A stretch of DNA of 13,180 nucleotides, from contig JAJXUY010000018.1 of assembly GCA_021782525.1 (NCBI GenBank), positions 1 through 13,180 of the forward strand, in the 5' to 3' direction. The notes below the pieces were generated by a model. That model made no database searches and was not told the DNA's origin. It saw nothing but the letters and a program-made list of their open reading frames with translations. This stretch comes from Acidobacteriota bacterium (GTDB lineage Bacteria > Acidobacteriota > Thermoanaerobaculia > Thermoanaerobaculales > Thermoanaerobaculaceae). Both the position numbers and the translations under genes were made by a program. Shown piece after piece: positions 1 through 11,391 of this stretch; the first letter of the stretch is position 1; each line of letters starts with the position of its first letter.

Positions 1-123
1 ACAGCCGCTTGCAGGCGGCGCGCCCGCGACGGTCCCGGCGTGGAGAAGATACGGTGTTCGAGAATCATGCGGTGCCAACGACGCGCAGTTCGTCGGGCGC
101 GCGCCTGAAGCGGGGCGTTAGCT
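1..123 (+). repeat. attC site 1 (left box cut by window edge)
   Basis: The window opens inside the left RYYYAAC box (only its final AC is present). The left arm CCGCTTGCAGGCG pairs with CGCCTGAAGCGG near 102-113, leaving one unpaired G in the left arm. The right box GTTAGCT is at 117-123. It is a long site of about 120 bp, unlike the 98-bp family. It closes a cassette whose gene lies to the left of the window. Confidence 0.88.
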
Positions 124-145
124 GGACAGACGGAGGGGAGCAACG

Positions 146-385
146 ATGAGCAGTTCTTCGAGCGGTAGGTCGTGGAAGAGCGCGCCGCAGTGGTTCCGGG
201 CCGTCATGTTCGTTGCCGCTCTTGGTGTGAGCGTGTTCCACGCGGTGCGGCTGGGTGGGGCCACGAACATGGACCCGTGGCTGCTGCTGGTCCTTGGCAT
301 GCTGGCAGGACGATTGCTTCACTACCTGCTGCCGACCGGTACGGACTCGCAGGTGGGCGATGAGCAGGTTCTCTTCCGCCAGTGA
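146..385 (+). CDS. Small two-helix membrane protein (cassette gene)
   Basis: This encodes 79 aa from ATG 146, with a strong Shine-Dalgarno GGAGGGGAG at 132-140. After a Ser-rich start there are two hydrophobic stretches, about residues 17-34 and 43-62, joined by a short loop, so an inner-membrane hairpin is likely. The tail (63-79) is polar. It is the only gene of the cassette running from 118 to 489, whose ends GTTAGCT and AGCTAAC are perfectly complementary. I recognise no family and propose no function. The rival frame overlapping 172-363 has no ribosome-binding site and an Arg/Gly-rich shadow composition. Confidence 0.75.
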   Translation: MSSSSSGRSWKSAPQWFRAVMFVAALGVSVFHAVRLGGATNMDPWLLLVLGMLAGRLLHYLLPTGTDSQVGDEQVLFRQ

Positions 386-397
386 TACGTGGCTGCC

Positions 398-495
398 AGC
401 TAACCAGCCGTTGCAGCCGCCCTGCTCGTCTGTCACGCGGCTTGCGTGGGCAAGCCGCGCGCCAGCCAGCGGGCGGCTGAACGGCGGCGTTAGGC
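398..495 (+). repeat. attC site 2 (98-bp family)
   Basis: Left box AGCTAAC 398-404, right box GTTAGGC 489-495. The arms GCCGTTGCAGCCG and CGGCTGAACGGC pair, with one extra G in the left arm. The central part varies from its sisters (for example CTTGCGTGGGCAAG at the tip) but keeps hairpin complementarity. Confidence 0.95.
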
Positions 496-515
496 GTCCC
501 TTGGAGTAGGCAGAA

Positions 516-1259
516 ATGTTCACGTCAGTGTTCCTACGCCGCTGGCTCGTTTGGCCTCTTGGTCTCGCAACAGTGGCGAGTCTCGCGCTTGCGTATTTCC
601 TCCCAGCGGGGGGACTTTTCGTCAACCTGGCTGCCACCTTTGTTGGGATTCTCTTCACGGTCGGGTACGTCGATCTGGTTCTGAAGAACCACGAAGCCCA
701 TCGTTGGGAGGCTGCCCTTACTCGCATTCAGGGCCGCCTCGACAACTTCACCGGCGTTGCCATAACCCAGTTTCGTGTGGCCTTTCGCATCCCGGCGAAT
801 GTCCTCGACCAAGCGCTGATGGTCCGCGGGTCGGACCACGAGCGCCGCACCGAGCTCGTGCGCCTCGCGCAGTCCTTCGTGATGCCGGCGGTGGAAGACG
901 GCCTGCGCGCCCTGGACACCCAGGGGTGGCAACGCCTTGTCAAACAGCTACAGGTCACATGGACGTCGGCGGACAGGCTTATTGAGTTGCACGGGAACCA
1001 ACTGGGCCCGGCCGTCATCGCCACGCTCCTGGACATCCAGAACACCATGACGTCAATCGGCACGTACTTCGCGACGTTTCCCGACGTCCTTGGGACCGAT
1101 CCCCAAGACCTCAAGCCAAATCGTCTTGGGCAGTCGACTCTCCCCCTGCAGAGAGATCTTCTTGCTTCTGCCGCGCGGGATGTTCGCACAACCCTGGCGT
1201 CCGCTATCCAGCTCGTCCAGCAGTCCGACGGGCTTTTCGCCAAGAGAGGAGACGCCTAA
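516..1259 (+). CDS. Membrane-anchored protein of unknown function (cassette gene)
   Basis: This encodes 247 aa from ATG 516, with GGAG at 503-506. Two adjacent hydrophobic segments, about residues 11-30 and 33-56, form a membrane hairpin, followed by about 190 residues of mostly helical soluble domain. That domain is rich in Arg, Gln and Leu, with a long amphipathic stretch around 65-85 and a weak coiled-coil look near the end. The TAA stop at 1257-1259 lies inside the left box of the following attC (GCCTAAC 1254-1260), so the recombination site completes the reading frame. The cassette ends match over 10 bp. No family is recognised. Confidence 0.85.
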   Translation: MFTSVFLRRWLVWPLGLATVASLALAYFLPAGGLFVNLAATFVGILFTVGYVDLVLKNHEAHRWEAALTRIQGRLDNFTGVAITQFRVAFRIPANVLDQALMVRGSDHERRTELVRLAQSFVMPAVEDGLRALDTQGWQRLVKQLQVTWTSADRLIELHGNQLGPAVIATLLDIQNTMTSIGTYFATFPDVLGTDPQDLKPNRLGQSTLPLQRDLLASAARDVRTTLASAIQLVQQSDGLFAKRGDA

Positions 1260-1351
1260 CATGCCGTTGCAGCCGACCCACTCGGCTGTCACGCCGCGTG
1301 CGGTGGCACGCGTCGCGCCAGCCGGCGGGCGGCTGAACGGCGGCGTTAGGG
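1254..1351 (+). repeat. attC site 3 (98-bp family)
   Basis: Left box GCCTAAC 1254-1260, right box GTTAGGG 1345-1351. The arms GCCGTTGCAGCCG and CGGCTGAACGGC carry one extra left-arm G, and the tip hairpin is GCCGCGTGCGGTGGCACGCG. It holds the stop codon of the upstream gene. Its right box supplies the Shine-Dalgarno of the downstream gene. Confidence 0.96.
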
Positions 1352-1358
1352 AGACCGG

Positions 1359-1979
1359 ATGAGGCACAGAGTTTCAATGCTTCTCATCTCGGCTGCTGTC
1401 GCGTTCGCCAGCGATGTCGCTGCAGAGAGCAGGATAGTCGCGCAAGGGAGAACCGGCGCCGAGGGGGATGGCAAAGCAGACGTCGTGACGATTGTCCTTG
1501 TCAGCGGGCACGTGGCAAAGGAGGGTTGTGCCGAGGGCGACGTCCTGGTTGGGAGGTTCGCCGTCAAGGTCAGGAAACCGTCCGGTCGGACGGTCAAGAC
1601 CAACCTGAATGACCTTGTTGGCAGCCCCGAGCTTCGTTTCGTCCCCGGGCCAGCTGGCATGATATTCTTTGATTTCACACACGATGGCCGACCGTGCTTC
1701 GCCGTGGCTGAGATGTCGTGTGGCAATAATGGGTTCTACCGGTTCTTCGCGCTCGCCCAAAATGGCACGGTCTCGTTGCTGTGTTTCGCGCCACCACCGA
1801 ACGGTCGCCACATCTTCGGCAACAACACCATCGCCAACGACGAATCTCTCCGGGTGACCAAGGATGGCTTCGAGTGCGACACGTACAACAATGCGGACGG
1901 CGAGAGCCACACCGCGGTCTTCCGCTGGATGCCGGAGCAGGGCATCTTCATGGAAGTCGAGGAGAAGGTCTCGAAGTGA
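1359..1979 (+). CDS. Secreted/periplasmic protein of unknown function (cassette gene)
   Basis: This encodes 206 aa from ATG 1359. The first 22 residues form a signal peptide: Arg at positions 2 and 4, hydrophobic core 6-18, likely cleavage after V-A-A at 20-22. The mature protein is beta-rich, with five cysteines (about 57, 113, 121, 142, 173) that could form disulphides outside the cytoplasm. A stretch at about 103-115 (FFDFTHDGRPCFAV) recalls a calcium-type D-x-D-G loop, but I would not name a domain from it. The ribosome-binding site AGGGAG at 1348-1353 is formed by the cassette's first bases, six bases before the ATG. No family is recognised. Confidence 0.83.
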   Translation: MRHRVSMLLISAAVAFASDVAAESRIVAQGRTGAEGDGKADVVTIVLVSGHVAKEGCAEGDVLVGRFAVKVRKPSGRTVKTNLNDLVGSPELRFVPGPAGMIFFDFTHDGRPCFAVAEMSCGNNGFYRFFALAQNGTVSLLCFAPPPNGRHIFGNNTIANDESLRVTKDGFECDTYNNADGESHTAVFRWMPEQGIFMEVEEKVSK

Positions 1980-1989
1980 ATGGACGGCT

Positions 1990-2087
1990 CCCTAACAGGC
2001 CGTTGCAGCCGCCCCACTCGGCTGTCACGCCGCTTGCATGCGCAACCGGCGCGCCAGCCGGCGGGCGGCTGAACGGCGGCGTTAGGC
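1990..2087 (+). repeat. attC site 4 (98-bp family)
   Basis: Left box CCCTAAC 1990-1996, right box GTTAGGC 2081-2087. The arms are those of the 98-bp family with the extra left-arm G. CTCCCTAAC at its start is the exact complement of the GTTAGGGAG that opened the upstream cassette at 1345. Confidence 0.96.
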
Positions 2088-2113
2088 GTCGTGCCTTGGC
2101 TGGAGGAGGCGTT

Positions 2114-2533
2114 ATGGGACGTTGGTCTGCGCCGTCCGATCCTGTTGCCGAAATCGAGCGAGAACTAGCGACCATCGCACACGAAGTCCGCCGGACAGCC
2201 AGCGTTGCCCCTATTCTCGCCTACATCCGTGGCAATCCGCTTACGATGGAGGTTGTCCGATACCACGGAATCCGGGACGAAGACATCGAGCAGTGGCACC
2301 AGGATCTCGTCCGCACCGGTGGCGCTCAGTGGGTCGGAGGGTCCTACGCGCCTGTGATCGCACTCGCGCTTCCGAACGGCCTTGACTTCATCGCGACCTC
2401 CCTCAAGTCTCGGCCACCGGATTGGGACGACTACAATGTCTGGCTCAAGATCTCGTACGATGTGCTAGCAAGTCTAGACAATCGGCGACCGCTGGCGGGC
2501 GAGTTGTTCCGGGAGGTCCATGACGACGCCTAA
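2114..2533 (+). CDS. Hypothetical protein (cassette gene)
   Basis: This encodes 139 aa from ATG 2114, preceded by GGAGGAGG at 2102-2109. The open frame extends far upstream (to about 1781), but that part crosses the previous gene and attC, so the site-proximal ATG is the real start. The protein is soluble. It has a charged helical N-terminal half (about 10-70, many Glu, Arg and Asp), then a more hydrophobic stretch near 80-95 and a Trp/Asp/Tyr-rich segment around 105-115. The stop TAA (2531-2533) lies inside the next attC box. The cassette ends agree over 12 bp (GTTAGGCGTCGT and ACGACGCCTAAC). No family is recognised. Confidence 0.8.
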   Translation: MGRWSAPSDPVAEIERELATIAHEVRRTASVAPILAYIRGNPLTMEVVRYHGIRDEDIEQWHQDLVRTGGAQWVGGSYAPVIALALPNGLDFIATSLKSRPPDWDDYNVWLKISYDVLASLDNRRPLAGELFREVHDDA

Positions 2534-2628
2534 CAGCGCGCTGGACCGGGCGGTCCGTCCTGTCACGCCCGTTGCACTGGCGCAACGGGCGCGCCAGTCC
2601 GTCCCGCCGGTCAGCGCGAGCGTTAGGC
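2528..2628 (+). repeat. attC site 5 (101 bp, divergent type)
   Basis: Left box GCCTAAC 2528-2534, right box GTTAGGC 2622-2628. The arms CGCGCTGGACCGG and CCGGTCAGCGCG pair, again with one extra G in the left arm. The tip is CCCGTTGC...GCAACGGG. The arm sequence is unrelated to the 98-bp family although the layout is the same, so this cassette came from a different attC lineage. Confidence 0.93.
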
Positions 2629-2666
2629 GCCACAAGAAGCCACGTTCACGAAAGGAGAACTGAGGA

Positions 2667-3245
2667 ATGGCCAAGGCCGCATTGACCCTGCCGAACGGTA
2701 CGATCGTCCAGATCGAGGGGACGGTGGAGGAGGTCCAGGCCCTGCTGGCGCACTACGGTTCCGGTGCGGTGCGCGGGCCCGGCGCAACCCCCGACAAGAC
2801 CGGCACCGCCCAAGCTAGCCGGCGGTCGAACATTGGCGCAAAGCCGAAGCCTCCCGCCGAAGAAGAGAAGGCCGGCAGCACGCTGGACTTGGCGGAAATC
2901 GTGAACCTGACGAAGACCTGCGACGAAGCAGAGGAAATCGAGGCACAGATTCTCGACCGCGCGAGCCAGGTCGATCGTACCTTACTGCCGCTCTACATCG
3001 TGCATGAGCACCTTGATAATCGTACTAGCCTGTCCTCTGGCGAGATCAGTAAGGTCACAACGGATCTCGGAGTCCCCGTGTCCCAACCACACGCGTCCAC
3101 GACCCTCTCCGGGACGGCATCAAAGTACGTAATCGGCGACAAGGTCCGGAGGAAGGGACAGACCGTTCGATACAAGCTGTCACGACGTGGACTCAAGTAT
3201 ATGAAGGCTCTGATTGGTGGCACGTCGGATGAAGACGCGAGCTGA
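2667..3245 (+). CDS. Winged-helix-like protein, first gene of a two-gene cassette
   Basis: This encodes 192 aa from ATG 2667, with AAAGGAG (2651-2657) and GAGG upstream. Three parts are visible. Residues 1-30 resemble a short beta module (LPNGTIVQIEGTVEEV) seen at the start of other small proteins. A low-complexity Gly/Ala/Pro/Lys linker runs from about 31 to 70. The C-terminal half (about 95-185) looks like a winged helix: SSGEISKVTTDLGVPVSQPH as the helix-turn-helix part, then a basic KVRRKGQTVRYKLSRRG wing. It probably binds nucleic acid, or acts as a protein-protein wHTH. Its last codons overlap the next gene, so the two are translated together. The domain call is by pattern only. Confidence 0.78.
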   Translation: MAKAALTLPNGTIVQIEGTVEEVQALLAHYGSGAVRGPGATPDKTGTAQASRRSNIGAKPKPPAEEEKAGSTLDLAEIVNLTKTCDEAEEIEAQILDRASQVDRTLLPLYIVHEHLDNRTSLSSGEISKVTTDLGVPVSQPHASTTLSGTASKYVIGDKVRRKGQTVRYKLSRRGLKYMKALIGGTSDEDAS

Positions 3246-3957
3246 CTTCGCTAGCGAGATCGCCCAGAAGAGCCTCTCGCACGTGGACCGCGCGGTGGCT
3301 TTACTCTGGTACTACCGGCACACCCAGGAGTATGAGGAGCGTTCTGCGACGGCACTGGCAACCGATCTCCACGACGAAGGCTTCCCGAAGCCCAATGTCA
3401 CTCGGCTGGCGGCTGACCTCAAGCGCAGCCGGTGCACCACACGCGGGAAGCGCCCTGGGACCTTTCAGATTGACGTTCGTCATCTCGCTGCCCTTGACGA
3501 GTCCTACTTGCCACTTCTGGGAGCCCGGAAGGTCAAGGTCACCGGGGCGATTCTGCCCAGCGAGAGCCTCACGGGAACTCGTGGCTACCTTGAGCAACTT
3601 GCTCACCAGATCAATGGTTCCTACGACGCCGGTTTCTTCGACGCCTGCGCCGTCTTGTGTCGCCGACTCATGGAGACGCTTGTCATCGAGGTCTACATCC
3701 ACCAGGGACGCCCTCACGATATCCAGCAGGATGGCGTCTTCCTACCCCTCGACCGACTGCTTGCGCAGATTAAGGGTGACAAATCAGTCGCTCTTGGGCG
3801 GGCCACGCCCAAGACGATGGCTGAGGTCAAGCTCTTGGGCGACACTGCCGCCCATGATCGTACATACATCACCAAGCAAGTCGACATCGATGACGTCAAG
3901 GCGCGGTACCGCAAGCTTATTGGGGAGCTGCTTATCCTGGCAGGCGTGAAGAAGTGA
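3229..3957 (+). CDS. Winged-helix plus DUF4145/HEPN-like protein, second gene of cassette
   Basis: This encodes 242 aa from ATG 3229, which overlaps the upstream gene's stop by 17 bases. TTG 3214 and GTG 3217 are alternative starts. Residues about 15-85 look like a winged helix (RAVALLWYYRHTQEY, then LATDLHDEGFPKPNVTRLAADL). Residues about 117-242 resemble DUF4145/HEPN-type helical domains: a helix pair with YDAGFFDACAVLCRRLMETL, then KLLGDTAAHDR at about 201-211, matching the family's G-N/D-x-A-A-H signature. The canonical HEPN nuclease motif R-x4-6-H is not intact; the residue before LLGDTAAH is Lys. It could be a catalytically altered RNase, a sensor or an adaptor. The pairing with another wHTH protein suggests a regulated two-component toxin or defence unit; that is inference. 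Confidence 0.78.
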   Translation: MKTRADFASEIAQKSLSHVDRAVALLWYYRHTQEYEERSATALATDLHDEGFPKPNVTRLAADLKRSRCTTRGKRPGTFQIDVRHLAALDESYLPLLGARKVKVTGAILPSESLTGTRGYLEQLAHQINGSYDAGFFDACAVLCRRLMETLVIEVYIHQGRPHDIQQDGVFLPLDRLLAQIKGDKSVALGRATPKTMAEVKLLGDTAAHDRTYITKQVDIDDVKARYRKLIGELLILAGVKK

Positions 3958-3973
3958 GACGGGCAGGCGTGGC

Positions 3974-4071
3974 GTCTAACAAGCCGTTGCAGCCGGCCCA
4001 CACGTCTGTCACGCCGCGTGCAGGGGCACGCGTCGCGCCAGCCGGCGGGCGGCTGAACGGCGGCGTTAGGT
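3974..4071 (+). repeat. attC site 6 (98-bp family)
   Basis: Left box GTCTAAC 3974-3980, right box GTTAGGT 4065-4071. GTGGCGTCTAAC at its start complements the GTTAGGCGCCAC that opened its two-gene cassette, with one G-T type mismatch. Arms and tip are of the 98-bp family. Confidence 0.95.
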
Positions 4072-4077
4072 GTTCCT

Positions 4078-4085
4078 AGGGGAGG
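4078..4085 (+). promoter_or_regulatory. Strong Shine-Dalgarno far from the ATG, pointing to a CTG start
   Basis: AGGGGAGG at 4078-4085 sits six bases before CTG 4092. That CTG is in frame with the ATG at 4134, with no stop between. The ATG has no purine-rich site nearby. This suggests translation from CTG 4092 (14 extra residues), or an ATG that mutated to CTG. Confidence 0.55.
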
Positions 4086-4133
4086 TGGCGACTGCCGATC
4101 GACGAAGCAAGTGCCAAGCAACGTCTGCCGCAC

Positions 4134-4886
4134 ATGTTGGAATGGCTTTCCAGGATACGGGCCACGGTGGAGGCCGAATTCAGCCTTGTCAAATATCAGC
4201 GTGACGACGACTTTGCCTTCATGGCGCTGTGCTTTCTTGGGAAGCAGATCGATCACTCTTACTCGCTTGAGCGCATCAGTCCGCTCAAGGATGCCGTCCT
4301 TATCGCACGTTGCATGTTCGAAGGTCTGTGCCAGCTCCTTTGGGCAAGTCACGAAATTCAGGTACGGCCGGCGCGCTGGCGCGCTTTTGCGGTCGTCGAG
4401 GATTGGAGGAACCTTCCGAAACGGCGCGCTGCAGGCTTCAACCCAACGCCTAAGATGATGCAGAAACTTGAGGACGCCCTGCACGAGGTCGAAGAACTCG
4501 TCATGACACAGAAGGCCAAGACGCAGAAAGAACGCGGGCTTCCCCTTCAGCCGGACCCGTATTTCAAGAACTGGCGAGCGGGTACTCACTTCACCACTAT
4601 CTTCCTTGAGGTTGACGCGGCTGATACTGCCGAGAACTTTTACAGCCCCTATTCCGGTTGGGCACATTGGTCGCCAGACGCGTTTGGCGACCGACTCGCG
4701 AAGAATGAAGTAGGGGTGAAGTATGGGCCGCCTCAGTCCTACGAGTTTGCGGCGTCTGCCGTCGCTCTCGCAATCCAGTGCCTCCTCCAGACAGCTCACC
4801 TGGCGTTCTGTCACCTCGATCTACCGGGGAAGGGCAAGGTGGAGGCCTTACGCGACGACTTCGAGGCGTGGCATGCAGCACAGTGA
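4134..4886 (+). CDS. DUF5677-like protein (cassette gene)
   Basis: This encodes 250 aa from ATG 4134, or 264 aa if the CTG at 4092 is used; the only good Shine-Dalgarno serves the CTG. It is a soluble, helical protein. The stretches DDDFAFMALCFLGKQIDHSYSL, the charged segment ISPLKDAVLIARCMFEGL with LLW, an aromatic block around 75-90 and YSPYSGWAHWSP near 170 match my memory of DUF5677 proteins, which are all-helical with conserved Arg, His and Trp. The function of that family is not established. Such genes turn up in cassette arrays and accessory islands, so a defence or stress role is possible but unproven. Its cassette ends agree over nine bases. Confidence 0.75.
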   Translation: MLEWLSRIRATVEAEFSLVKYQRDDDFAFMALCFLGKQIDHSYSLERISPLKDAVLIARCMFEGLCQLLWASHEIQVRPARWRAFAVVEDWRNLPKRRAAGFNPTPKMMQKLEDALHEVEELVMTQKAKTQKERGLPLQPDPYFKNWRAGTHFTTIFLEVDAADTAENFYSPYSGWAHWSPDAFGDRLAKNEVGVKYGPPQSYEFAASAVALAIQCLLQTAHLAFCHLDLPGKGKVEALRDDFEAWHAAQ

Positions 4887-4907
4887 GGCAGCGAGATCCA
4901 CAAGGAC

Positions 4908-5005
4908 ACCTAACAGCGCGTTGCAGCCGTCCTACTCGGCTGTCACGCCGCGTGCGTGCGCACGCGTCGCGCCAGCCGGCGGGCGGCTGAACGGCGGCGT
5001 TAGGC
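4908..5005 (+). repeat. attC site 7 (98-bp family)
   Basis: Left box ACCTAAC 4908-4914, right box GTTAGGC 4999-5005. Arms and tip are of the 98-bp family with the extra left-arm G. The ACACCTAAC end complements the cassette start GTTAGGTGT at 4065. Confidence 0.96.
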
Positions 5006-5026
5006 CTTCGCTCCAGAGAGTCGTAC

Positions 5027-5584
5027 ATGGCTGAGCCACACGATCACGTCTGCCCCATCACTCTCGCTGGTACGCTCGATAACCGGATCCGACGGTGGCT
5101 TCAAAGCCCTCGCCGCCTTCTCGAGCCTTACGTGCGAGAGGGCATGGTCGCTCTCGACTTCGGTTGTGGCCCCGGGTTCTTCACTCTGGAACTCGCGCGC
5201 CTCGTCGGTTCGTCCGGTCGCGTCATCGCGGTCGACCTACAACCTGCCATGCTCGAGAGAGTCCGCGTCAAAGCTCAGGGCACCGAACTCGAACCGCGCA
5301 TCACGCTTCACCAGTGCCAGCCAAATCGAATCGGCCTTTCAACGCCTGTGGACTTCGCGCTCGCGTTCTACGTGCTTCATGAACTCCCCGATCCCGCGGC
5401 ACTCCTCACCGAGCTTCGGTCCCTCCTGACCTCACACGGACGGCTTTTCATCGTTGAACCGCCGTTCCACGTATCCAAGGCCGCCTTCGAAACCACGATT
5501 CAATGTGCTCATCGGGCGGGTTTCCGCCTCATCGCCCGACCTCGCATCCGCTTCAACAAGGCCGCCCTCCTCGCGGGCGGCTGA
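5027..5584 (+). CDS. Class I SAM-dependent methyltransferase (cassette gene)
   Basis: This encodes 185 aa from ATG 5027, with AGAGAG at 5015-5020. It opens with HDHVCPITLAGTLDNRIRRW, typical of a small-molecule methyltransferase family seen in many bacteria and archaea. Motif I is DFGCGPGFF (44-52), which binds S-adenosylmethionine. The acidic residue after the second strand is D70 (VIAVDL), which would hold the ribose. The strand-4 region is DFALAFYVLHELPD (109-122). The C-terminal part FIVEPPFHVSKAAFE is also family-typical. The length is normal, so the gene looks complete. The substrate is unknown. It lies between a normal attC (4908) and a decayed one (5617). Confidence 0.92.
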   Translation: MAEPHDHVCPITLAGTLDNRIRRWLQSPRRLLEPYVREGMVALDFGCGPGFFTLELARLVGSSGRVIAVDLQPAMLERVRVKAQGTELEPRITLHQCQPNRIGLSTPVDFALAFYVLHELPDPAALLTELRSLLTSHGRLFIVEPPFHVSKAAFETTIQCAHRAGFRLIARPRIRFNKAALLAGG

Positions 5585-5616
5585 TCGCCCTTCGTCAGTC
5601 TGCTCAACCCGGCGAG

Positions 5617-5674
5617 GCCAAATTCCGGCATGCTGCGGACTCGCTACGCTCGCCGCTGATGCCAGACGTAAGGC
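5617..5674 (+). repeat. attC site 8, short and degenerate
   Basis: Arms GGCATGCTGCGG and CCGCTGATGCC pair apart from one mismatch and one extra left-arm base, around the tip ACTCGCTACGCTCG. The left box has decayed to GCCAAAT (5617-5623) and the right box to GTAAGGC (5668-5674). Even so, GTAAGGCGGCT still complements AGCCGCCTAAC at 6199-6209, which marks the left end of the toxin-antitoxin cassette. At 58 bp it resembles the 60-bp site at 6203. Confidence 0.75.
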
Positions 5675-5676
5675 GG

Positions 5677-5946
5677 CTAGAGGCTCTTGTAGACTCGGCT
5701 TCGATGTCCGACCTTGACCAGGACAACCACGAGTTCGAGGTCGCGGACCTCGTACACGATCCGGTAGACCCCCTGTCGCACCCGGTAGCGGTCGCCTACA
5801 CCAGCGAGTCTTTCGCAGCCCGGTGAACGCGGGTTTGTCGCAAGGCCTTGGATGCGAGTAACGATCTGTCGGCGGACCTTCTTCGGTTCGATCCGCTCGA
5901 TCTCTTTCGCCGCAGAGGCCTTGATTCGGAGGCTATAGCTTCCCAC
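5677..5946 (-). CDS. RelE/ParE-family toxin of a type II toxin-antitoxin pair
   Basis: This encodes 89 aa from a GTG at 5946; the stop TAG sits two bases from the decayed attC box. The fold pattern is that of RelE/ParE: an N-terminal strand, a helix pair with ASAAKEIERIEPKKVRRQI (10-28), the NPRSPGCERLAG loop (38-49), then strands YRVRQGVYRIVYEVRD (54-69) and a final VGHRSRVY (79-86). Members are ribosome-dependent mRNA interferases or gyrase inhibitors; I cannot tell which from sequence. The start overlaps the antitoxin's end by 14 bases, so the two are co-translated. Such pairs are common in cassette arrays and are thought to stabilise them. Confidence 0.9.
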   Translation of the reverse strand: MGSYSLRIKASAAKEIERIEPKKVRRQIVTRIQGLATNPRSPGCERLAGVGDRYRVRQGVYRIVYEVRDLELVVVLVKVGHRSRVYKSL

Positions 5947-6163
5947 TACGCCTCATCGACCGCAGGAAGTCCTCAAAGGCTCGCTCGGGTTCGTGTGCCC
6001 GCTGCTCAAATGCCTCTAGGTCTTCGGCGTCGTCGGCAAGGGCCGCGCGCACAGCATCATTCACCATCTCGGAAACCGAGCGGTCGCTGGAGGCAGCCTT
6101 CAGCTTCAGCGCACGATGAACGTTCGGTTCGAAGTAGACGGTCACGCGACGAGCGTCACTCAT
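5933..6163 (-). CDS. Ribbon-helix-helix (CopG-type) antitoxin
   Basis: This encodes 76 aa from ATG 6163. Residues about 5-43 (RRVTVYFEPNVHRALKLKAA, then SVSEMVNDAVRAAL) form a ribbon-helix-helix DNA-binding domain. The acidic C-terminal half (DDAEDLEAFEQRAHEPE) is the expected toxin-wrapping tail. A TTG at 6172 would add three residues, but it overlaps the predicted -10 element, so I reject it. The promoter places the transcript start about at the ATG, so the mRNA is probably leaderless. The protein should neutralise the overlapping RelE/ParE toxin and repress its own promoter. Confidence 0.9.
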   Translation of the reverse strand: MSDARRVTVYFEPNVHRALKLKAASSDRSVSEMVNDAVRAALADDAEDLEAFEQRAHEPERAFEDFLRSMRRSGKL

Positions 6164-6170
6164 GAGGCCC

Positions 6171-6199
6171 AAAATAGTGCTAGAACGCTATGACGTCAA
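6171..6199 (-). promoter_or_regulatory. Promoter of the toxin-antitoxin operon
   Basis: Read on the minus strand: TTGACG (6199-6194), a 17-base spacer, then TATTTT (6176-6171). Transcription would begin about 6-8 bases further, at or next to ATG 6163, and there is no Shine-Dalgarno. The palindrome TGACGTCA (6191-6198) overlaps the -35 element and is a plausible antitoxin operator. Confidence 0.7.
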
Positions 6200-6202
6200 G
6201 CC

Positions 6203-6262
6203 GCCTAACGATATCGCGTTCAGCGGCGAGCGCAGCGAGTCCGCTGCAACGCGGGGTTAGGC
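6203..6262 (-). repeat. attC site 9, 60 bp, in inverted orientation
   Basis: Boxes GCCTAAC 6203-6209 and GTTAGGC 6256-6262. Here the extra base is in the right arm: the left arm is CGCGTTCAGCGG, the right arm CCGCTGCAACGCG. Read on the minus strand it becomes CGCGTTGCAGCGG...CCGCTGAACGCG, which is the polarity of every other site. So this attC points the opposite way, matching the minus-strand gene at 6279-6671. Confidence 0.9.
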
Positions 6263-6278
6263 GGCCTGATGCTGGCCT

Positions 6279-6671
6279 TTATCGCCGGCTCCCTGCGGGC
6301 ACCCAGCGAGCGGCCGCATCGGCACTATCATCGGGCCGCGTATTGAATGCGATCGCAGCGCCTGGGGCAGCCTTGCGTACAGCGTTGATGACGACTTCAA
6401 ATATCGCAAGGCGTTTGGGTGGCAGGCGCACGCCGGCTCCGATAACAACACAATCATAGGTCTTCGACGCCAGTTGCCTCTCTACTGCCGGCCCGGCGCT
6501 CTCATCCGGCCGGATGTAGGCAACCTCCCCTTCCCACCCCCGGTCAACGAACTGCTTGAGCGCAATCGCAATACCGGCGTGGACCTTCTCAACGGACATG
6601 CCAGGCGGCAAAGCGGGGTCCGAAAAATCCACAGTCTCCGGGTCGTAACCGAGCAGCAGAACTCGCGTCAT
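6279..6671 (-). CDS. Conserved hypothetical protein (inverted cassette gene)
   Basis: This encodes 130 aa from ATG 6671, with AGGAGGG just upstream on the minus strand. A possible -10 GATAAT lies at 6698-6693, but no convincing -35 was found. The protein begins MTRVLLLGYDPETVDFSDP and has alternating strands and helices: VLLLGY, EVAYIRP (49-55), YDCVVIGAGVRLPPKR (72-87), AAIAFN (105-110). It looks like a small Rossmann-like domain, and I recall similar uncharacterised proteins in other bacteria. No catalytic motif stands out. With the inverted attC at 6203-6262 it forms a complete cassette on the minus strand, its ends GTTAGGCGGC and GCCGCCTAAC matching over 10 bp. Confidence 0.85.
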   Translation of the reverse strand: MTRVLLLGYDPETVDFSDPALPPGMSVEKVHAGIAIALKQFVDRGWEGEVAYIRPDESAGPAVERQLASKTYDCVVIGAGVRLPPKRLAIFEVVINAVRKAAPGAAIAFNTRPDDSADAAARWVPAGSRR

Positions 6672-6738
6672 GAGACCCTCCTCGTAGCCGGTATTATCGC
6701 ACCACAGTTTGCCGAGGGCATCGAGTGTCTCCTTAGCC

Positions 6739-6866
6739 GCCTAACCAGCGCTTACAGGCGCTGCGTCCGGGGCCGAGATTGCTCGGAGGTTGCAGCGTGG
6801 CGCATCATCGTTCCGTGCCAGAAGCCTTTGCGGTTGTGGGCGCGCGTCTGAAGCGCAGCGTTCGGG
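6739..6866 (+). repeat. attC site 10 (128 bp, GTTC-type right box)
   Basis: Left box GCCTAAC 6739-6745, right box GTTCGGG 6860-6866. The arms GCGCTTACAGGCG and CGTCTGAAGCGC pair with one extra left-arm base and one mismatch. The right box has GTTC instead of GTTA. The same arm sequence recurs at 7899 and 8433, a second attC lineage in this array. Confidence 0.85.
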
Positions 6867-6939
6867 TGCGCCCGTGTCCGCCCGACACCCGTGAGATACG
6901 ACATTCCCTAGACACCACGCCTTCCTCCCTCGCCCCGCT

Positions 6940-7152
6940 ATGCTGAGTCGAAAGCCGCTCACAGTCGCTGACCGGATCGTGGCGGTACTCCTCGCTCTCC
7001 TCTGCTGCGGCGCTGGAGTCGTGAGCATTGTGCTCGGGATCCGCCACGGCCGGGTGCTGCTCATCGTAGGCGGGCCGGCTGCGATCGTCCTGGGCCTGCT
7101 CTTCGCCCGCGCTGCGTGGATCGGCCGCCCGCTGAGCCTCCCAGGTGGCTGA
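6940..7152 (+). CDS. Small two-helix membrane protein (cassette gene)
   Basis: This encodes 70 aa from ATG 6940. Two hydrophobic segments, about residues 12-34 and 39-58, are separated by a short basic turn (GIRHGR). The N-terminus carries positive charge, so it is probably an inner-membrane hairpin. There is no Shine-Dalgarno before the ATG; the upstream sequence is C/T-rich. Either the message is leaderless or the start lies further in. No family is recognised. The cassette's two ends do not complement each other (GTTCGGG against GCCTAAC), so this unit may be a fusion of two cassettes. Confidence 0.6.
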   Translation: MLSRKPLTVADRIVAVLLALLCCGAGVVSIVLGIRHGRVLLIVGGPAAIVLGLLFARAAWIGRPLSLPGG

Positions 7153-7398
7153 GCCGCGACCTCGGCCTGCAGTCGCCGCCGCCGAGCCAAGGGACCCTCG
7201 CCGCACCGGAACCCGCCGGGACCGCAGGGGCGCTGGCCAACTGGCGAATGAAGCTGGCGGAACGCGCACGACCGGAGGGGTGCTTGGCGGATCGCGAGGT
7301 CCGGGTCGCGCAAGAGTTCAACGGTGCCGCGACATCGCGAGATCGGTGACTTCTTGGCGCGAAAGATGTGCCGAGATCTCGGAGTGCCGGAGCCTAGC
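7153..7398 (+). other. Gene-free stretch in the cassette before attC 11
   Basis: No credible gene was seen in these 246 bases. Open frames across it lack ribosome-binding sites and have low-complexity composition. A GTTCAAC at about 7316 matches the attC box consensus, but no pairing arm follows. Since the flanking cassette ends are mismatched, this may be the remains of a second cassette. Confidence 0.5.
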
Positions 7399-7496
7399 GC
7401 CTAACAGGCCGTTGCAGCCGCGCCTCACGGCTGTCACGCCGCGTGCAGGGGCAGGCGTCGCGCCAGCCGGCGGGCGGCTGAACGGCGGCGTTAGAC
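7399..7496 (+). repeat. attC site 11 (98-bp family)
   Basis: Left box GCCTAAC 7399-7405, right box GTTAGAC 7490-7496. Arms GCCGTTGCAGCCG and CGGCTGAACGGC have the extra left-arm G. It is nearly identical to the sites at 1254-4908 although it lies beyond several sites of other types. Confidence 0.95.
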
Positions 7497-7544
7497 GCAC
7501 CCTAATGGCGATCACCTATGGACCCTTAATCTGATTCGCCGATC

Positions 7545-7877
7545 ATGATTTTTCAGGCTCGGCAGTTGTACGAGGCGGATATGGTCGCGGCCGCATTGGA
7601 AGAGGCCGGCATTCGGCAGATCAGAAAGGTCAAGGGCAGCAGGGCGAGTGTTCTCTATTGCATCTTCGTTTCCTCGGAGGTCGAGGCCCAGGCTCGAAGA
7701 ATTGTGGGAACCATCTCTGCGGACGACGAGGCGAAAGTAGGGAAGGCACCGTCGGAGCGAGTTGGCCGCGCCAGGCCACGGTTGAGGGCGATCGCCGTAG
7801 CGGTCTTCGTCATCGTTGTAGTCGGTGGCTTCGCTTTGGTAGTCCTTGGGTGGCTACAGGCCATGCGAGGGCACTAG
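7545..7877 (+). CDS. DUF2007-like protein with C-terminal membrane anchor (cassette gene)
   Basis: This encodes 110 aa from ATG 7545; no clear Shine-Dalgarno is present. Residues 1-57 follow the DUF2007 pattern: a hydrophobic strand, then EADMVAAALEEAGI (10-23), a second strand with a hydrophobic VLYCIFVSS (36-44), then EVEAQARRIV. DUF2007 is a small ACT/ferredoxin-like fold often called putative signal-transducing; its ligand is not established. A basic linker follows, then one hydrophobic helix at about 81-105, so the domain would be held at the membrane. A separate DUF2007-like gene occurs at 10352 outside the array. Confidence 0.75.
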   Translation: MIFQARQLYEADMVAAALEEAGIRQIRKVKGSRASVLYCIFVSSEVEAQARRIVGTISADDEAKVGKAPSERVGRARPRLRAIAVAVFVIVVVGGFALVVLGWLQAMRGH

Positions 7878-7898
7878 TGCCGGGCGGGGCAGCCGGGC

Positions 7899-8024
7899 GT
7901 CTGACAGGCGCTTGCAGCTGCACGCCGGCCAGCGAGTTTGTGCGGCGGCCTCGCGGGGTTCATCATCATGCCATGCCGAAGCCCGAAGGGTCAGCCGGCG
8001 TGCCACTCAAGCGCAGCGTTCGAC
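7899..8024 (+). repeat. attC site 12 (126 bp, GTTC-type right box)
   Basis: Left box GTCTGAC 7899-7905 has one change from the consensus RYYYAAC. The right box is GTTCGAC 8018-8024. GCGTCTGAC still complements the cassette start GTTAGACGC at 7490 with one G-T mismatch. The arms GCGCTTGCAG and CTCAAGCGC leave one unpaired base. Confidence 0.82.
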
Positions 8025-8058
8025 GCCACAAGCCACACCAAGCGTCGCTGGAGGACCC

Positions 8059-8427
8059 ATGAAGCCTCTCGCGCTCGTCTGCAACGTCGTCTCGTTCCTC
8101 TTCACGCTGCTTGTGATCGCAGGCGATGGTCCCGCCACGAAGACCGTCTACATCGTCCTCATGCTCCTCTTGCTTCTCATCCCGATCCTCACGCTCCTGG
8201 CGCTCGGCCGCCCGCAAACGTTCCGGGCAAGAGCCACCGCCGTTCTCCGTCTCGCGGCTCTGGGCAATCTCGTCCTGCTCGGGTTCGTCTGTTGGGCCCT
8301 GGTCGACCAGCACCCTCACCCGAACGAGCCGGGCTTTCTTCCGTACGCCGCCCTCATGATCCTCACGCCGATCCTCAGCGCCATCGTCCTCCTGCGCCAC
8401 CCACCCACTGAACTACGGCACGGCTAG
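8059..8427 (+). CDS. Four-helix membrane protein (cassette gene)
   Basis: This encodes 122 aa from ATG 8059, with GGAGGA at 8050-8055. The same frame is open further left, but that part covers attC 12, so the ATG next to the Shine-Dalgarno is used. Hydrophobic segments lie at about 3-21, 29-48, 62-82 and 94-113, with short polar loops and a His-rich loop (DQHPHPNEP, 83-91). It is an inner-membrane protein with no recognised family. It is the last clear gene of the array; its closing attC is decayed. Confidence 0.8.
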   Translation: MKPLALVCNVVSFLFTLLVIAGDGPATKTVYIVLMLLLLLIPILTLLALGRPQTFRARATAVLRLAALGNLVLLGFVCWALVDQHPHPNEPGFLPYAALMILTPILSAIVLLRHPPTELRHG

Positions 8428-8432
8428 GCGGC

Positions 8433-8497
8433 GTTCAACCAGCGCTTGCAGCGAACGCCCACGCCCTGAGCTTCAGGGCGCCGCCGAAGCGACGCGC
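8433..8497 (+). repeat. attC site 13, decayed (right box lost)
   Basis: GTTCAAC (8433-8439) followed by CAGCGCTTGCAGCG is the left half of a GTTC-type attC. GGCGTTCAAC still matches 8 of 10 bases of the complement of the cassette start at 8018. The partner arm is reduced to CCGAAGCG near 8483-8490, and no GTTRRRY box follows. It marks the last site of the recognisable array. Confidence 0.65.
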
Positions 8498-8513
8498 CGG
8501 CTCCCGAGCCGGC
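8462..8513. other. Two adjacent perfect hairpins at the array end
   Basis: CGCCCTGAGCTTCAGGGCG (8462-8480) is an 8-bp stem with a 3-base loop. GCCGGCTCCCGAGCCGGC (8496-8513) is a second 8-bp stem. Neither has a T-tract, so simple intrinsic termination is doubtful. The first may be the tip of the decayed attC hairpin. Confidence 0.5.
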
Positions 8514-8552
8514 CGTGTGGGCTATGATCTGGGGCACACCCAGGGGGCCGAG

Positions 8553-8669
8553 ATGCGGTTGGAGTTCACAGCGGTGTTCCAGCAGGTTCCCGAGGGCGCC
8601 ATCGCCTTCGGTGAGGAGTCGCCCGGCGCGAACACCCAGGCCCGCCGCACGACAGGAGGACGTCCATGA
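8553..8669 (+). pseudogene. Truncated HicB-type antitoxin start
   Basis: An open frame of 38 codons begins at ATG 8553 and reads MRLEFTAVFQQVPEGAIAFG and then EESPGANTQ. This is the N-terminal half of the HicB antitoxin fold, where the family normally has AVFxxVPEGYIAFVEELPGANTQG. After about residue 29 the homology stops and the frame runs through the Shine-Dalgarno of the next gene, ending in an ATGA overlap at 8666-8669. No HicA toxin is visible nearby. A TATGAT (8523-8528) upstream may be its old -10 element. It is best read as a deletion remnant, now at most a leader ORF for the reductase gene. Confidence 0.7.
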
Positions 8670-9334: not shown

Positions 9335-9449
9335 TGTGAAGAGGACGGCGCGCGCTCACCACGCATGCAGGCCGACGCCGGTTCGTGGCGCGGGTCGATC
9401 CAGGTGCCGGGCGAAGGACGCGCTCGGTCGCGTGAGGTGCCGCCGCCAG

Positions 9450-9511
9450 AGCACGCCGTGGCGGCCGCCCGACTCGGCTGCCACGCCGCGTGGGGTGGCA
9501 CGCGGCGCGCC
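9450..9511 (+). repeat. Fossil half attC of the 98-bp family
   Basis: About 57 bases from GCCGTGGCGGCCG to CGCGGCGCGCC align with the left half and tip of the 1254 attC with about seven substitutions and no gaps, by eye. The tip CGCCGCGTG/CACGCGGCG is now a perfect 9-bp hairpin. The left box is degraded to CCAGAGC, and the right arm and right GTTAGGC box are absent. It lies in the gap between the reductase and DUF4386 genes. Confidence 0.7.
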
Positions 9512-9552
9512 GTGACCGCGGCCGACCCGAAGCACCGTGGGAGGAGGGACAG

Positions 9553-10275
9553 ATGAGCACGCCGGTGCAAGATCGATCCCCCGAGGCGACCAGGCGACTG
9601 GCGCGGATCGCGGGGGCGGTCTACGTGGCGGTCGGCGTCGCGAGCGCGTTCGGCTTCTACCACGCGCCGGTGGTCCAGAGCGATCCGGCCGCGATCGCCC
9701 GCGGCCTGCTGGCGTCCGACCTGCGCTTCCGGGTCGGGGTCGTGACCGACCTGCTCTCGACCGCGCTCGCCGTGCCGCTGGCGCTGCTGCTCTACCAGCT
9801 CTTCCGGCCGGTGCAGAAGGCGCAAGCGGCGTGGATGGCCGTGCTGCTGCTGGTGGCCGTGCCGATCTCGTTCGTGGTGGCGCTCCACTACGTCGCGGCG
9901 CAGTGGCTGCTGAGCGGCGCCCCGGTCGTCGCGGCGCTCGCCGGCCCCGAGCGGCAGGCGCTCGGGATGCTCTTCCTGCGCCTGCACACCCACGGAGTGC
10001 TGGCGGTCGAGATCTTCTGGGGGCTGTGGCTGCTGCCGTTCGGTCTGCTGGTCCGGCGATCGGGGTTCCTGCCGCGCGTCCTCGGCGTGCTCCTCATCGT
10101 CGCCGGCGCGGCGTACGTCGCGCACAGCCTCGTGACGCTCCTGCTCGGCGGGCAGCGGTTCCTCCCGTTCGAGCGCCTCACCATGCTGGCCCGCGCGGCC
10201 GGCGAGTTGCCCGTCATGCTGTGGTTGCTGGTCGTGGGGGCGCGCGCGCGCGGGGCGATCTCGGAGGCGACGTGA
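9553..10275 (+). CDS. DUF4386 family membrane protein
   Basis: This encodes 240 aa from ATG 9553 after GGGAGGAGGGA. Six hydrophobic segments are visible, about 18-38, 62-82, 92-114, 148-168, 175-195 and 214-231. The opening ATRRLARIAGAVYVAVGVAS and the IARGLLASDLRFRVGVVTDL stretch (48-67) are hallmarks of DUF4386, a family of unknown function in the inner membrane. The length is normal. An in-frame GTG at 9490 would extend it across the attC fossil and lacks a ribosome-binding site. Base composition is clearly richer in GC than the cassette genes, consistent with resident chromosome. Confidence 0.9.
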   Translation: MSTPVQDRSPEATRRLARIAGAVYVAVGVASAFGFYHAPVVQSDPAAIARGLLASDLRFRVGVVTDLLSTALAVPLALLLYQLFRPVQKAQAAWMAVLLLVAVPISFVVALHYVAAQWLLSGAPVVAALAGPERQALGMLFLRLHTHGVLAVEIFWGLWLLPFGLLVRRSGFLPRVLGVLLIVAGAAYVAHSLVTLLLGGQRFLPFERLTMLARAAGELPVMLWLLVVGARARGAISEAT

Positions 10276-10351: not shown

Positions 10352-10765
10352 ATGTACTGCCCAAACCCAGACTGCCCAGACGTGCAAGAGTCCGGCGAGC
10401 CGGGCGAGTACCGCGACGACGTCCGGGTGTGCCCGAAGTGCGGCGCCGAGCTCGGGCCGGGGACGCCGGGGGACGAGCGTGAAGGAACCGGGACGGGTCC
10501 CGAGGGCGACGCCGAGCCGAACGGTCCGCTCGTCGCCGTCGCGGCGTTCAACTACCGCCAGGATGCGGAGCTCGCGGCCTCGTTCCTGCAGGCGAACGGC
10601 GTGGAGGCCGGCGTGTTCGGCGACGACTGCGGCGGCACCGACCCGCGGATCGGGTTCTCCTCGCGGGCGCGGGTGATGGTGCCTGAGGGGCAGGCGAGCC
10701 TCGCGGCGACGCTGCTCGACCAGGGATCCGATGCACCGGCGGAAGGGAGTGAGCCGTGCAGCTAA
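10352..10765 (+). CDS. Zinc-ribbon plus DUF2007 protein
   Basis: This encodes 137 aa from ATG 10352, with GGGAGGA at 10335-10341. Cysteines 3, 8, 27 and 30 (CPNPDC and CPKCG) form a zinc-ribbon-like N-terminus. After an acidic Gly/Glu linker (about 33-58) comes a DUF2007 domain: LVAVAAFNYRQDAELAASFL, QANGVEAGVFGDD, then ARVMVPEGQASLAATLL. The likely role is a small cytoplasmic sensor or adaptor; the ligand is unknown. The end overlaps the start of the cupin frame by 10 bases, so the two were probably co-translated. Confidence 0.85.
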   Translation: MYCPNPDCPDVQESGEPGEYRDDVRVCPKCGAELGPGTPGDEREGTGTGPEGDAEPNGPLVAVAAFNYRQDAELAASFLQANGVEAGVFGDDCGGTDPRIGFSSRARVMVPEGQASLAATLLDQGSDAPAEGSEPCS

Positions 10766-11085: not shown

Positions 11086-11176
11086 ACGGCCCGGCCGGAG
11101 CGGCGTCTCGTGGTGCCTCGCCGCATCGGGTCACCAGCGACGAGGGCGCGCGGACTCGGGCGCCGGCGACCGGGGG

Positions 11177-11310
11177 CCGGTCATCGCCTACGACCGCCTC
11201 GGGTACGACAGGGCCCCGCCGCGCACGGCGCCGCCTGTGGCCCACTTCCTCAACGAGGAGGCCGAGGTGCTGCCGCGGGCGCTGCTCGACGGGTTCGGGC
11301 GACGTCGCGG
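11177..11310 (+). pseudogene. Remnant of an alpha/beta hydrolase
   Basis: About 45 codons in the frame of GTC 11180 read VIAYDRLGYDRAPPR and VAHFLNEEAEVLPRALLDGFG. This matches the stretch between strand beta-4 and the helix before the nucleophile elbow in alpha/beta hydrolases (usually AYDRxGYGRS, then EAExLxALLDxLG). The G-x-S-x-G nucleophile, the upstream oxyanion region and the rest of the domain are all missing. A run of ten G lies just after it (11336-11345). The rest of 11086-11391 holds nothing else I can name. Confidence 0.6.
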
Positions 11311-11391
11311 CCGCACCGGCGTGCGGGCGAGGTTCGGGGGGGGGGCCGCTCCAGGGGGCGCGCATCGAGACACGGAAAGGAAGGAACGGCG

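Follow-up and report, generated by a model that had tools for sequence, protein, structure and literature searches.

Promoter-like and start-like motifs in the long attC sites of an Acidobacteriota integron cassette array

The window analyzed here, a 13,180-nucleotide stretch of DNA from an Acidobacteriota bacterium, almost certainly holds part of an integron cassette array, to judge from sequence homology, and the array is probably of the chromosomal type. Such an array is a known kind of element, and the promoter-like and start-like content of its long attC sites appears to be the new part. With slightly better than even confidence, these long sites would not only act in recombination but also supply the following cassette with a promoter and a leaderless start.

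The array and its genes

Two attC models, R1 (25 sites) and R2 (12 sites), were trained on relatives only and run with filters off. They recover 12 attC sites in positions 1-8024, together with an extra weak, truncated site at 8433-8502. This count agrees with the 13 sites that a preliminary description had placed in 1-8500, of which 10 are strong, two moderate (5617 and 6203) and one weak. Matches to attC models are thus present in the window, as are R''/L''-L'/R' boxes and complementary arms (12 sites, plus the weak, truncated one). The exact 21-mer at the attC 3' end occurs in six copies in the window and in none of 200 shuffles. The sites are listed below.

1..123, +: long attC, its 5' end cut by the left edge of the window, which falls inside the site (R2 E 3.9e-10; 8e-10 for 1-118)
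398..495, +: class A attC (R1 E 1.1e-23)
1254..1351, +: class A attC (R1 E 1.7e-24)
1990..2087, +: class A attC (R1 E 7.8e-24)
2528..2628, +: class C attC (R1 E 3e-19)
3974..4071, +: class A attC (R1 E 1.4e-25)
4908..5005, +: class A attC (R1 E 9.4e-22)
5617..5674, +: short attC of moderate score (R2 E 5e-4; R1 E 0.76)
6203..6262, -: short attC, inverted relative to the array (R2, 42.2 bits on - vs 21.4 on +; R1, 36.1 vs 15.3)
6739..6866, +: long attC, class D (R2 E 8.5e-19)
7399..7496, +: class A attC (R1 E 4.6e-22)
7899..8024, +: long attC, class D (R2 E 2.7e-18)
8433..8502, +: truncated attC that closes the array, without R' but by eye with R''/L'' (weak: R2 E 0.03, R1 E 0.16)
9461..9524, +: decayed class A attC lacking R boxes, in the right flank (R1 E 6e-4; 0.0075 in a larger search)

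Compared with a reference copy, the five remaining class A sites are 83-91% identical, and at least three further attC classes are intermixed with them. Each attC interval contains one to two genes. Strand scores from R1 and R2 place 11 of the 12 attC sites on the + strand and one in inverted orientation; the strand asymmetry of attC sites is due to an extra base in L''. The expected polarity, with attI to the left, stands as the direction of the array (+) and fails for the single attC at 6203-6262 (-). The site at 8433-8502 is not carried by its score alone, because a presumed chance match within a right-flank gene (10516-10621, -; E 0.015) scores better with R2. The decayed copy at 9461-9524 is missed by R2, which gives only E 3.3 for 9467-9496. 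Rfam offers no useful match for the window, the one sub-threshold miRNA match being attributable to chance. The array has a G+C content of about 60-67%, compared with 69-75% for the right flank, where it reaches 72-75% from 9001 onward.

Fourteen array ORFs were compared with Pfam.

146..385, +: cassette gene, 79 aa, orphan (ORF list; Pfam, PADLOC, NCBIfam)
516..1259, +: cassette gene, 247 aa, orphan, its stop codon inside the R'' box of attC 1254 (Pfam)
1359..1979, +: cassette gene, 206 aa, orphan, with an ATGA overlap with the attC frame-0 stop (Pfam)
2114..2533, +: cassette gene, 139 aa, orphan, its frame the same as that of the attC (Pfam)
2667..3245, +: two-gene cassette, gene 1, 192 aa, orphan (Pfam)
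3229..3957, +: two-gene cassette, gene 2, 242 aa, DUF4145 (PF13643, 24 bits, cut-off 23.1)
4134..4886, +: cassette gene, DUF5677-like, 250 aa, with CTG 4092 a possible start (PF18928, 25.6 bits, cut-off 27.1)
5027..5584, +: cassette gene, SAM methyltransferase (PF13847, E 7e-18)
5677..5946, -: ParE-family toxin gene (PF05016, E 4e-11)
5933..6163, -: ribbon-helix-helix antitoxin gene (PF20605, E 8.5e-7)
6279..6671, -: inverted-cassette gene, 130 aa, orphan (Pfam, PADLOC, NCBIfam)
6940..7152, +: cassette gene, 70 aa, orphan, chosen by judgement, the script having taken a longer ORF further on (Pfam)
7545..7877, +: cassette gene, 110 aa, orphan (Pfam)
8059..8427, +: cassette gene, 122 aa, orphan, a DUF7937 match falling short of the cut-off (Pfam)

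The curated Pfam cut-off is passed by 4/14 of these ORFs (DUF4145, methyltransferase, ParE and the RHH antitoxin), with the DUF5677 gene just under it, which bears out the earlier characterization of the genes as mostly unrecognised. NCBIfam matches none of 10 array proteins, and PADLOC assigns a defence function to none of the same 10. A promoter-like sequence, TTGACG-17-TATTTT (6199-6171, -), precedes the antitoxin gene at 5933-6163. GGAGG-like sites were also seen, uncounted, before several cassette genes.

Integrase, relatives and kind of element

Five metagenome-assembled genomes (MAGs) carry the attC 21-mer. Three of them (G002, G004 and G005, from Acidobacteria or Terriglobia) encode an integron integrase (TIGR02249, 459-473 bits, cut-off 265) with the same attC family directly downstream; the remaining two have no integrase above the TIGR02249 cut-off. 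Since the same attC family adjoins an integron integrase in three MAGs, the window very probably holds a genuine integron array, as originally proposed. Polarity in these three MAGs also matches the predicted placement of the attI end to the left, and an attI-like GTTAGGC junction follows intI at three loci (L094, L105 and L109). The integrase itself lies out of view, as first described: the 20 window proteins given to Pfam include no integrase domain, and no plasmid or phage domain either.

It is very improbable that the repeats belong to another element type, such as interspersed hairpin repeats. The decayed copy at 9461-9524, outside the array, would fit such an element, but the R'/R'' boxes, the strand-asymmetric model scores, the one to two genes per interval and the intI gene beside the same family contradict it.

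At somewhat below even likelihood, the array may be a cluster without an integrase (CALIN) that was seeded elsewhere than at the main integron. The window starts with an attC and no intI is seen, and G002 has arrays or single attC sites on several contigs besides its intI contig. Against this, the left side of the window is simply cut, and the arrays of G004 and G086 share a contig with the same HIT-family gene, hinting at a recurrent site; the latter argument is limited, as in G002 and G055 this gene sits on a contig without array matches. By blastn, the high-G+C right flank is common to a G088 contig.

Acidobacteriota are abundant in soil. An integron integrase passes the family cut-off in 112/396 sampled genomes of the phylum, and integrons are therefore common in it. 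The view that sedentary integrons are under-described in such organisms needs correcting for Acidobacteria, whose integrons have already been reported (PMC8352920, PMC8618304).

Motifs in the loops of long attC sites

Long attC sites measure ~125 nt, and in the lineage of the window their apical loop tends to contain a -10-like hexamer, then exactly 6 nt, then ATG or GTG in one fixed frame that stays open through the crossover and tends to close at the start of the following gene. The preliminary description does not mention this feature. All three long attC sites of the window carry this motif, and the short ORF that begins at the loop start codon spans the recombination point and ends near the next gene start. 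The arrangement is one of sequence only, and the promoter role of the hexamers listed below is putative.

60..65, +: -10-like hexamer GAGAAT in the loop of attC 1-123, with GTG at 72 after 6 nt
72..149, +: attC-borne leader ORF with a GTG start, frame 0 at R', its TGA overlapping ATG 146
6803..6808, +: -10-like hexamer CATCAT in attC 6739, with GTG at 6815 after 6 nt
6815..6946, +: attC-borne leader ORF (GTG), its TGA at 6944 overlapping the gene start at 6940
7938..7943, +: weak -35-like TTGTGC, read from sequence, 17 nt upstream of the -10-like hexamer
7961..7966, +: -10-like hexamer CATCAT in attC 7899, with ATG at 7973 after 6 nt
7973..8062, +: attC-borne leader ORF (ATG), ending in ATGA on the next gene start

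Among 56 long attC sites from model matches, NANNNT-N6-ATG/GTG is present in 43 (39 of these in frame 0), and 38 of the 56 have a loop start that is in frame and open through the crossover; the motif had been seen before it was counted, and R2 training took in 12 of these sites. Loop starts lie 39, 42, 45, 48 or 57 nt from R'. In a second set, selected on the arms with the loop unused, the spacing of 6 occurs in 20/28 sites (shuffle mean 1.6; bottom strand 3), and 18/28 are in frame and open (500 shuffles, mean 0.45, maximum 3). Omitting three sites from G003, a genome not in the family, leaves 16/25 (shuffle mean 0.35, maximum 2). The window's own three sites are not among the 28, and the regions scanned for this set were largely picked by R1/R2 or 21-mer matches. 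Many of the 28 are related, forming 16 groups, of which two were judged false and 10 of the other 14 have the motif. Four further low-scoring, previously unseen family sites include one with an in-frame motif. A spacing of 1 is also common (16/28 on the top strand, 14 on the bottom) because the CATCAT word is repeated.

The motif could instead reflect shared ancestry within an ordinary array, in which cassette duplication spread a few attC families and their start codons are functionless; this is a lesser possibility, at about one in three. The sites do fall into a limited number of families, and frame openness alone is cheap, because the remaining two frames run into stops in the canonical L' (TGA) and R' (TAG) boxes. 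Yet loops with differing hexamers (CATCAT, TAAGCT/TAGGCT, TATCCT/TATTCT, GAAAAT) share one 6-nt spacing and one phase across five distances to R', which argues against ancestry as the whole explanation.

The host offers a second comparison. TANNNT at this spacing is the signature of leaderless genes, which average 13.3% of the genes in three Acidobacteria genomes according to the part of Zheng 2011 (PMC3160421) that treats them. In 400 kb of G002, strict TANNNT peaks exactly at -12 from candidate starts (20/640, with counts of 0-8 elsewhere between -40 and -6), again counting against shared ancestry, whereas relaxed NANNNT has no peak at -12 in G002 (31 there, 9-38 at other offsets), consistent with it. 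In the window, the hexamers (two CATCAT and one GAGAAT) fit only the relaxed form, none of them being strict TANNNT. Strict TANNNT is found in the TAAGCT/TAGGCT and TATCCT attC families, and in the 28 lineage loops it exceeds neither chance nor the opposite strand (12 top, 9 bottom, shuffle mean 8.9). A generic sigma-70 scan gives no promoter in the window's three long attC sites, another point in favor of shared ancestry. A -35-like TTG occurs in 10/18 sites (300 shuffles, mean 1.7, maximum 6); in attC sites of other genomes it appears in 1/19, compared with 1.0 in shuffles.

A further alternative is that the loops are promoters only, with the in-frame start incidental and the genes using their own Shine-Dalgarno sites. 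This is unlikely, although several observations suit it. In the other class genomes that were scanned, TANNNT stands on the loop top strand in 19/24 attC sites of at least 95 nt, compared with 3/24 on the bottom strand (1000 shuffles, mean 6.3, maximum 12); the count was not blind, as part of the sites had been read earlier, and of the 24, 10 come from two loci (L201 and L204), one belongs to a family member (G106, L173) and one appears spurious (L190). Those sites mostly lack a start codon 6 nt on, and GGAGG-like sites, though uncounted, are present at several cassette genes. In the lineage, by contrast, 18/28 sites do have the start codon, in phase and open, which points beyond a promoter alone.

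A fresh test, fixed beforehand, covered 40 integron regions from the phylum, which fell in effect outside the class, as 147 of the 148 available class genomes had been searched earlier; it yielded five attC sites of at least 95 nt. TANNNT was found in 0/5 and in-frame starts in 0/5, a result that sides with shared ancestry; for TANNNT the test is nearly uninformative because shuffling expects only 1.5 of 5. Loop promoters in long attC sites across the whole phylum are accordingly unsupported (0/5 in fresh genomes; n=5, little information).

Coupling to the next gene and a proposed mechanism

Of 10 forward-gene cassettes in the window, five have a leader stop overlapping the gene start, in three the stop falls 3-10 nt before it, one is in frame and one fits no category; for 3/10, the gene chosen differs from the longest ORF taken by the script. 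Across lineage cassettes, 42/49 have their first frame-0 stop within 60 nt of R', compared with 36/83 for the other frames (p 1e-6), or 35/42 and 30/72 without G003. This bias is absent in other genomes (7/16 vs 22/44), and shared ancestry does not readily account for it. Coupling alone is weak for long attC sites (p 0.06 and 0.08) and equally strong after class A attC sites, which lack the promoter motif. NTGA overlaps number 22/61 in frame 0 and 16/109 in other frames, over a background that ordinary second-codon usage creates; by itself this overlap is a weak argument. RNA of the whole attC at 7899 folds at -60.7 kcal/mol (z -2.5), compared with -29.0 kcal/mol (z -0.2) for RNA starting at 7973.

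These observations suggest the following mechanism. Cassettes would be inserted by an integrase of the type that adjoins this attC family in relatives, and the ~97-nt attC sites would be plain recombination sites. The long sites at 1-123, 6739-6866 and 7899-8024 may have a second job. Their loop -10 element, exactly 6 nt from ATG/GTG, would reproduce the host's leaderless-gene layout, with transcription predicted to start at the loop start codon. Such a message would lack the attC 5' arm and could form no whole ribosome-blocking hairpin. Translation would run from the first codon across the crossover (codon GTT), in the frame left open by the canonical attC boxes, and the leader stop on or just before the next gene start would couple translation to that gene. 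Because the crossover always falls at that GTT codon, a downstream cassette would always be joined in the same phase. It is thus conceivable, at just under even likelihood, that this attC class combines a recombination site with a portable expression module, so that shuffling would join an incoming cassette to a working start and expression would be set by the upstream attC rather than by distance from Pc.

Parts of this arrangement have known counterparts. Acidobacteria are among the taxa given their own attC model in work on sedentary chromosomal integrons (Ghaly et al. 2021, PMC8352920); there, too, in the sections that describe them, cassettes are bounded by attC sites that are alike within a lineage and contain mostly unknown genes, but those sections mention no promoter or start codon inside attC. 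ORF-11 and ORF-17 of attI1 in class 1 integrons are likewise short recombination-site ORFs that aid translation of the next gene, and ORF-11 runs across the recombination point and is terminated by a stop codon of the inserted cassette, as outlined in part of PMC8876359. These ORFs lie in attI, use a Shine-Dalgarno sequence and serve the first cassette only, according to the same part of that source, whereas the element predicted here would be in attC, leaderless and moving with cassettes.

Transcription also starts inside Vibrio arrays, where one sigma-70-type promoter bridges an attC and starts fall within one attC (cassette F2), as reported in portions of PMC2945992 and PMC11014356. As presented there, these cases involve varied cassette promoters, or AT-rich starts that may be spurious, rather than a feature conserved within an attC family and paired with a framed start codon. 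The leaderless genes described in part of Zheng et al. 2011 (PMC3160421) share the hexamer-start spacing, with TANNNT ~12 nt upstream, but there the signature belongs to ordinary genes rather than recombination sites, and class D hexamers here are mostly CATCAT instead of TANNNT. No attC-borne leaderless start appears among the matches listed from the open-licence PMC literature, including the portions of PMC9176274, PMC12444791 and PMC12340547 that they cover.

On the usual view, as given in part of PMC8876359, most cassettes have no promoter and are weakly expressed when far from Pc, and the hairpins that attC sites form in mRNA impede translation of the gene that follows. If the proposed mechanism is correct, a promoter and start codon in the loop would solve weak expression and the hairpin block together. 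Arrays without an integrase could then stay expressed, and recombination sites would be selected for gene expression as well as for recombination. If borne out by experiment, this would be a new way of switching cassette arrays on.

The cassette array and its relatives

The preliminary description placed an integron cassette array in the left part of the window, and this is confirmed as an array of a known kind, with attC sites found by two covariance models, R1 and R2, trained exclusively on attC of other genomes. The left part (1 to ~8500, ~60-67% G+C) yielded 12 sites with R1/R2, plus a truncated weak one at 8433-8502; the right flank has a G+C content of 69-75%, or 72-75% from 9001.

attC sites and associated genes of the window (attC calls from R1/R2)
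Starts 398, 1254, 1990, 3974, 4908 and 7399: six near-identical class A attC, 97 nt
Start 2528: class C attC, one site
Starts 5617 and 6203: two short attC
6203-6262, minus strand: inverted short attC, against the array direction, with an orphan gene (6279-6671) in front
Starts 1, 6739 and 7899: three long attC
5677-6163, minus strand: toxin-antitoxin pair (ParE/RHH) on the strand opposite to the array; a promoter-like site of its own at 6199-6171
9461-9524: decayed class A copy that lacks R boxes, within the high-G+C flank (R1 E 6e-4; missed by R2)

We judge a further R2 match inside a flank gene (10516-10621, minus strand, E 0.015) to be due to chance. Pfam cut-offs were passed by 4 of the 14 array proteins (DUF4145, methyltransferase, ParE toxin and RHH antitoxin), and neither PADLOC nor NCBIfam gave a match for the 10 array proteins tried. 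For a DUF5677-like cassette gene (window 4080-4134), CTG 4092, preceded by GGGGAGG, is a possible start codon instead of ATG 4134.

A search of the GTDB genome collection with the attC 3' 21-mer returned 12 stretches in five MAGs, four titled Acidobacteria or Terriglobia and one Chloroflexi. Three of the five (G002, G004, G005) encode an integron integrase above the family cut-off, with same-family attC directly behind it on the same strand. At these loci (L094, L105 and L109) intI is co-directional with the array, an arrangement known from Treponema too, and the attI-like region between the two, which contains a CATAAT element, is conserved in G004 and G005 and more loosely so in G002. The Chloroflexi-titled MAG, WY5.bin143 (L003, L012), which has the same attC families and no integrase above the cut-off, is perhaps misbinned. 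Integrase carriers make up 6 of 17 genomes in the family of G002, 44 of 148 in the class and 112 of 396 in the phylum sample, where some genomes match at two to four places. Six other G002 contigs (C14, C33, C45, C52, C63, C78) hold arrays or lone attC besides the array at intI, possibly through insertion at secondary sites.

The closest relative found, G088, is among the 17 family genomes; its HIT-family protein is 90% identical, and its DNA is 82-92% identical to the right flank across four aligned blocks. The two cassettes of window 7304-8648 are missing from it, and a different decayed attC (R2 E 0.003) stands in their place, so the array end differs among close relatives. The otherwise collinear G088 flank also lacks 11169-12524 (~1.36 kb, two small genes) and a 733-bp stretch, 9364-10096, within which the decayed attC at 9461-9524 sits. 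The HIT-family gene shares a contig with arrays in G004 and G086, but not in G002 and G055.

A start-codon motif in long attC

All three long attC of the window carry a loop motif, whose order is shared by several loop kinds: NANNNT, 6 nt, ATG or GTG, then a frame open to the R' box, with GTT read as a codon.

Loop motifs in the long attC of the window
60-74: GAGAAT-GTG
6803-6817: CATCAT-GTG
7961-7975: CATCAT-ATG

Across 56 long attC compared side by side, hexamer and start occur in 43, of which 39 are in frame 0 (the frame with GTT as codon), and 38 of the 56 are both in-frame and open; 13 lack any motif, and 5 have another frame or a stop. Because 12 of the 56 sites had trained R2, we recounted on 28 long attC located from their arms alone (the finder gave one match in 400 kb of control chromosome at the threshold used), in regions mostly chosen through model or 21-mer matches. 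Here the spacing of 6 recurs in 20 of 28 sites (1.6 in shuffles), and 18 are in-frame and open, against 0.45 in shuffles (maximum 3, 500 shuffles). Without the three sites of G003, a genome outside the family, the count is 16/25 versus 0.35 (maximum 2). The 28 sites form 16 groups at 80% similarity, and once two judged false are removed, 10 of 14 have the motif.

TANNNT at this spacing is the published leaderless signature, reported on average for 13.3% of genes in three Acidobacteria genomes (PMC3160421). In 400 kb of G002 chromosome (249 long ORFs, 640 candidate starts), it falls exactly at -12 20 times and at every other offset 0-8 times. Two attC families have strict TANNNT; in the CATCAT family only A2 and T6 are preserved. 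In G002 host sequence the relaxed NANNNT has no peak at -12 (31 at -12, 9-38 at other offsets), and strict TANNNT shows no enrichment across the 28 lineage loops (12 top strand, 9 bottom, 8.9 shuffled); the promoter reading of the window's three sites thus draws on the spacing, the start codon and the frame, not on the hexamer. Of 18 lineage sites, 10 contain a -35-like TTG, where 1.7 would be expected. A generic sigma-70 scan found no promoter in the window's long attC. Judged from sequence, long attC of this lineage would carry a promoter and a leaderless start.

Proposed coupling of the attC frame to the next gene

Two of the three reading frames are interrupted in canonical attC by the stops in the boxes L' (TGA) and R' (TAG), which leaves a single open one. 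In lineage cassettes, the first stop of this frame (frame 0) comes no further than 60 nt from R' in 42/49 cases versus 36/83 for other frames (p 1e-6; minus G003, 35/42 vs 30/72, p 1e-5), and within 14 nt of a main-ORF start codon in 31/45 versus 26/75. Other genomes show no such bias (7/16 vs 22/44). The leader stop overlaps the gene start at window 146, 1359, 5027, 6940 and 8059, as read from the sequence.

The bias is equally strong behind 90-114-nt attC (20/21 vs 15/41), from which the promoter motif is absent (TANNNT 0/34), and behind long attC alone it is weak (p 0.06 and 0.08). We read it as an adaptation of cassettes moving between attC types, but the bias would also be expected from ribosomes that come in from the gene upstream. 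RNA of the whole 7899 attC folds at -60.7 kcal/mol (z -2.5), whereas RNA from 7973 (-29.0, z -0.2) folds no better than shuffles; the 6739 site is similar (-63.0, z -2.0 whole vs -39.4, z 0.7).

Precedents and reach

Cassette promoters, one bridging an attC, are described in Vibrio arrays (PMC2945992), as are transcript starts within one attC, with the remark that they may be spurious (PMC11014356); in the attI1 of class 1 integrons, ORF-11 and ORF-17 aid first-cassette translation (PMC8876359). Among the open-licence literature matches listed, we saw none that describes an attC family in which a leaderless start is conserved.

In other genomes of the class, the loop has TANNNT on the top strand in 19 of 24 attC of at least 95 nt and on the bottom strand in 3 (shuffle mean 6.3, maximum 12, n=1000), a set partly read before the count, with 10 sites from two loci, one from a family member and one that looks false. 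This suggests that the loops of these attC may carry a promoter without a start codon. A fresh test with criteria set beforehand, on 40 phylum regions in effect outside the class, yielded only 5 long sites, none of which had the hexamer on either strand (0/5, against 1.5 in shuffles) or a start codon in frame; four more degraded family sites have the motif in 1/4. We therefore make the claim for the lineage of the window only, and see a hint of it in the class. Within that lineage, putative promoter-bearing long attC are well supported as a sequence pattern, from which promoter function is inferred.
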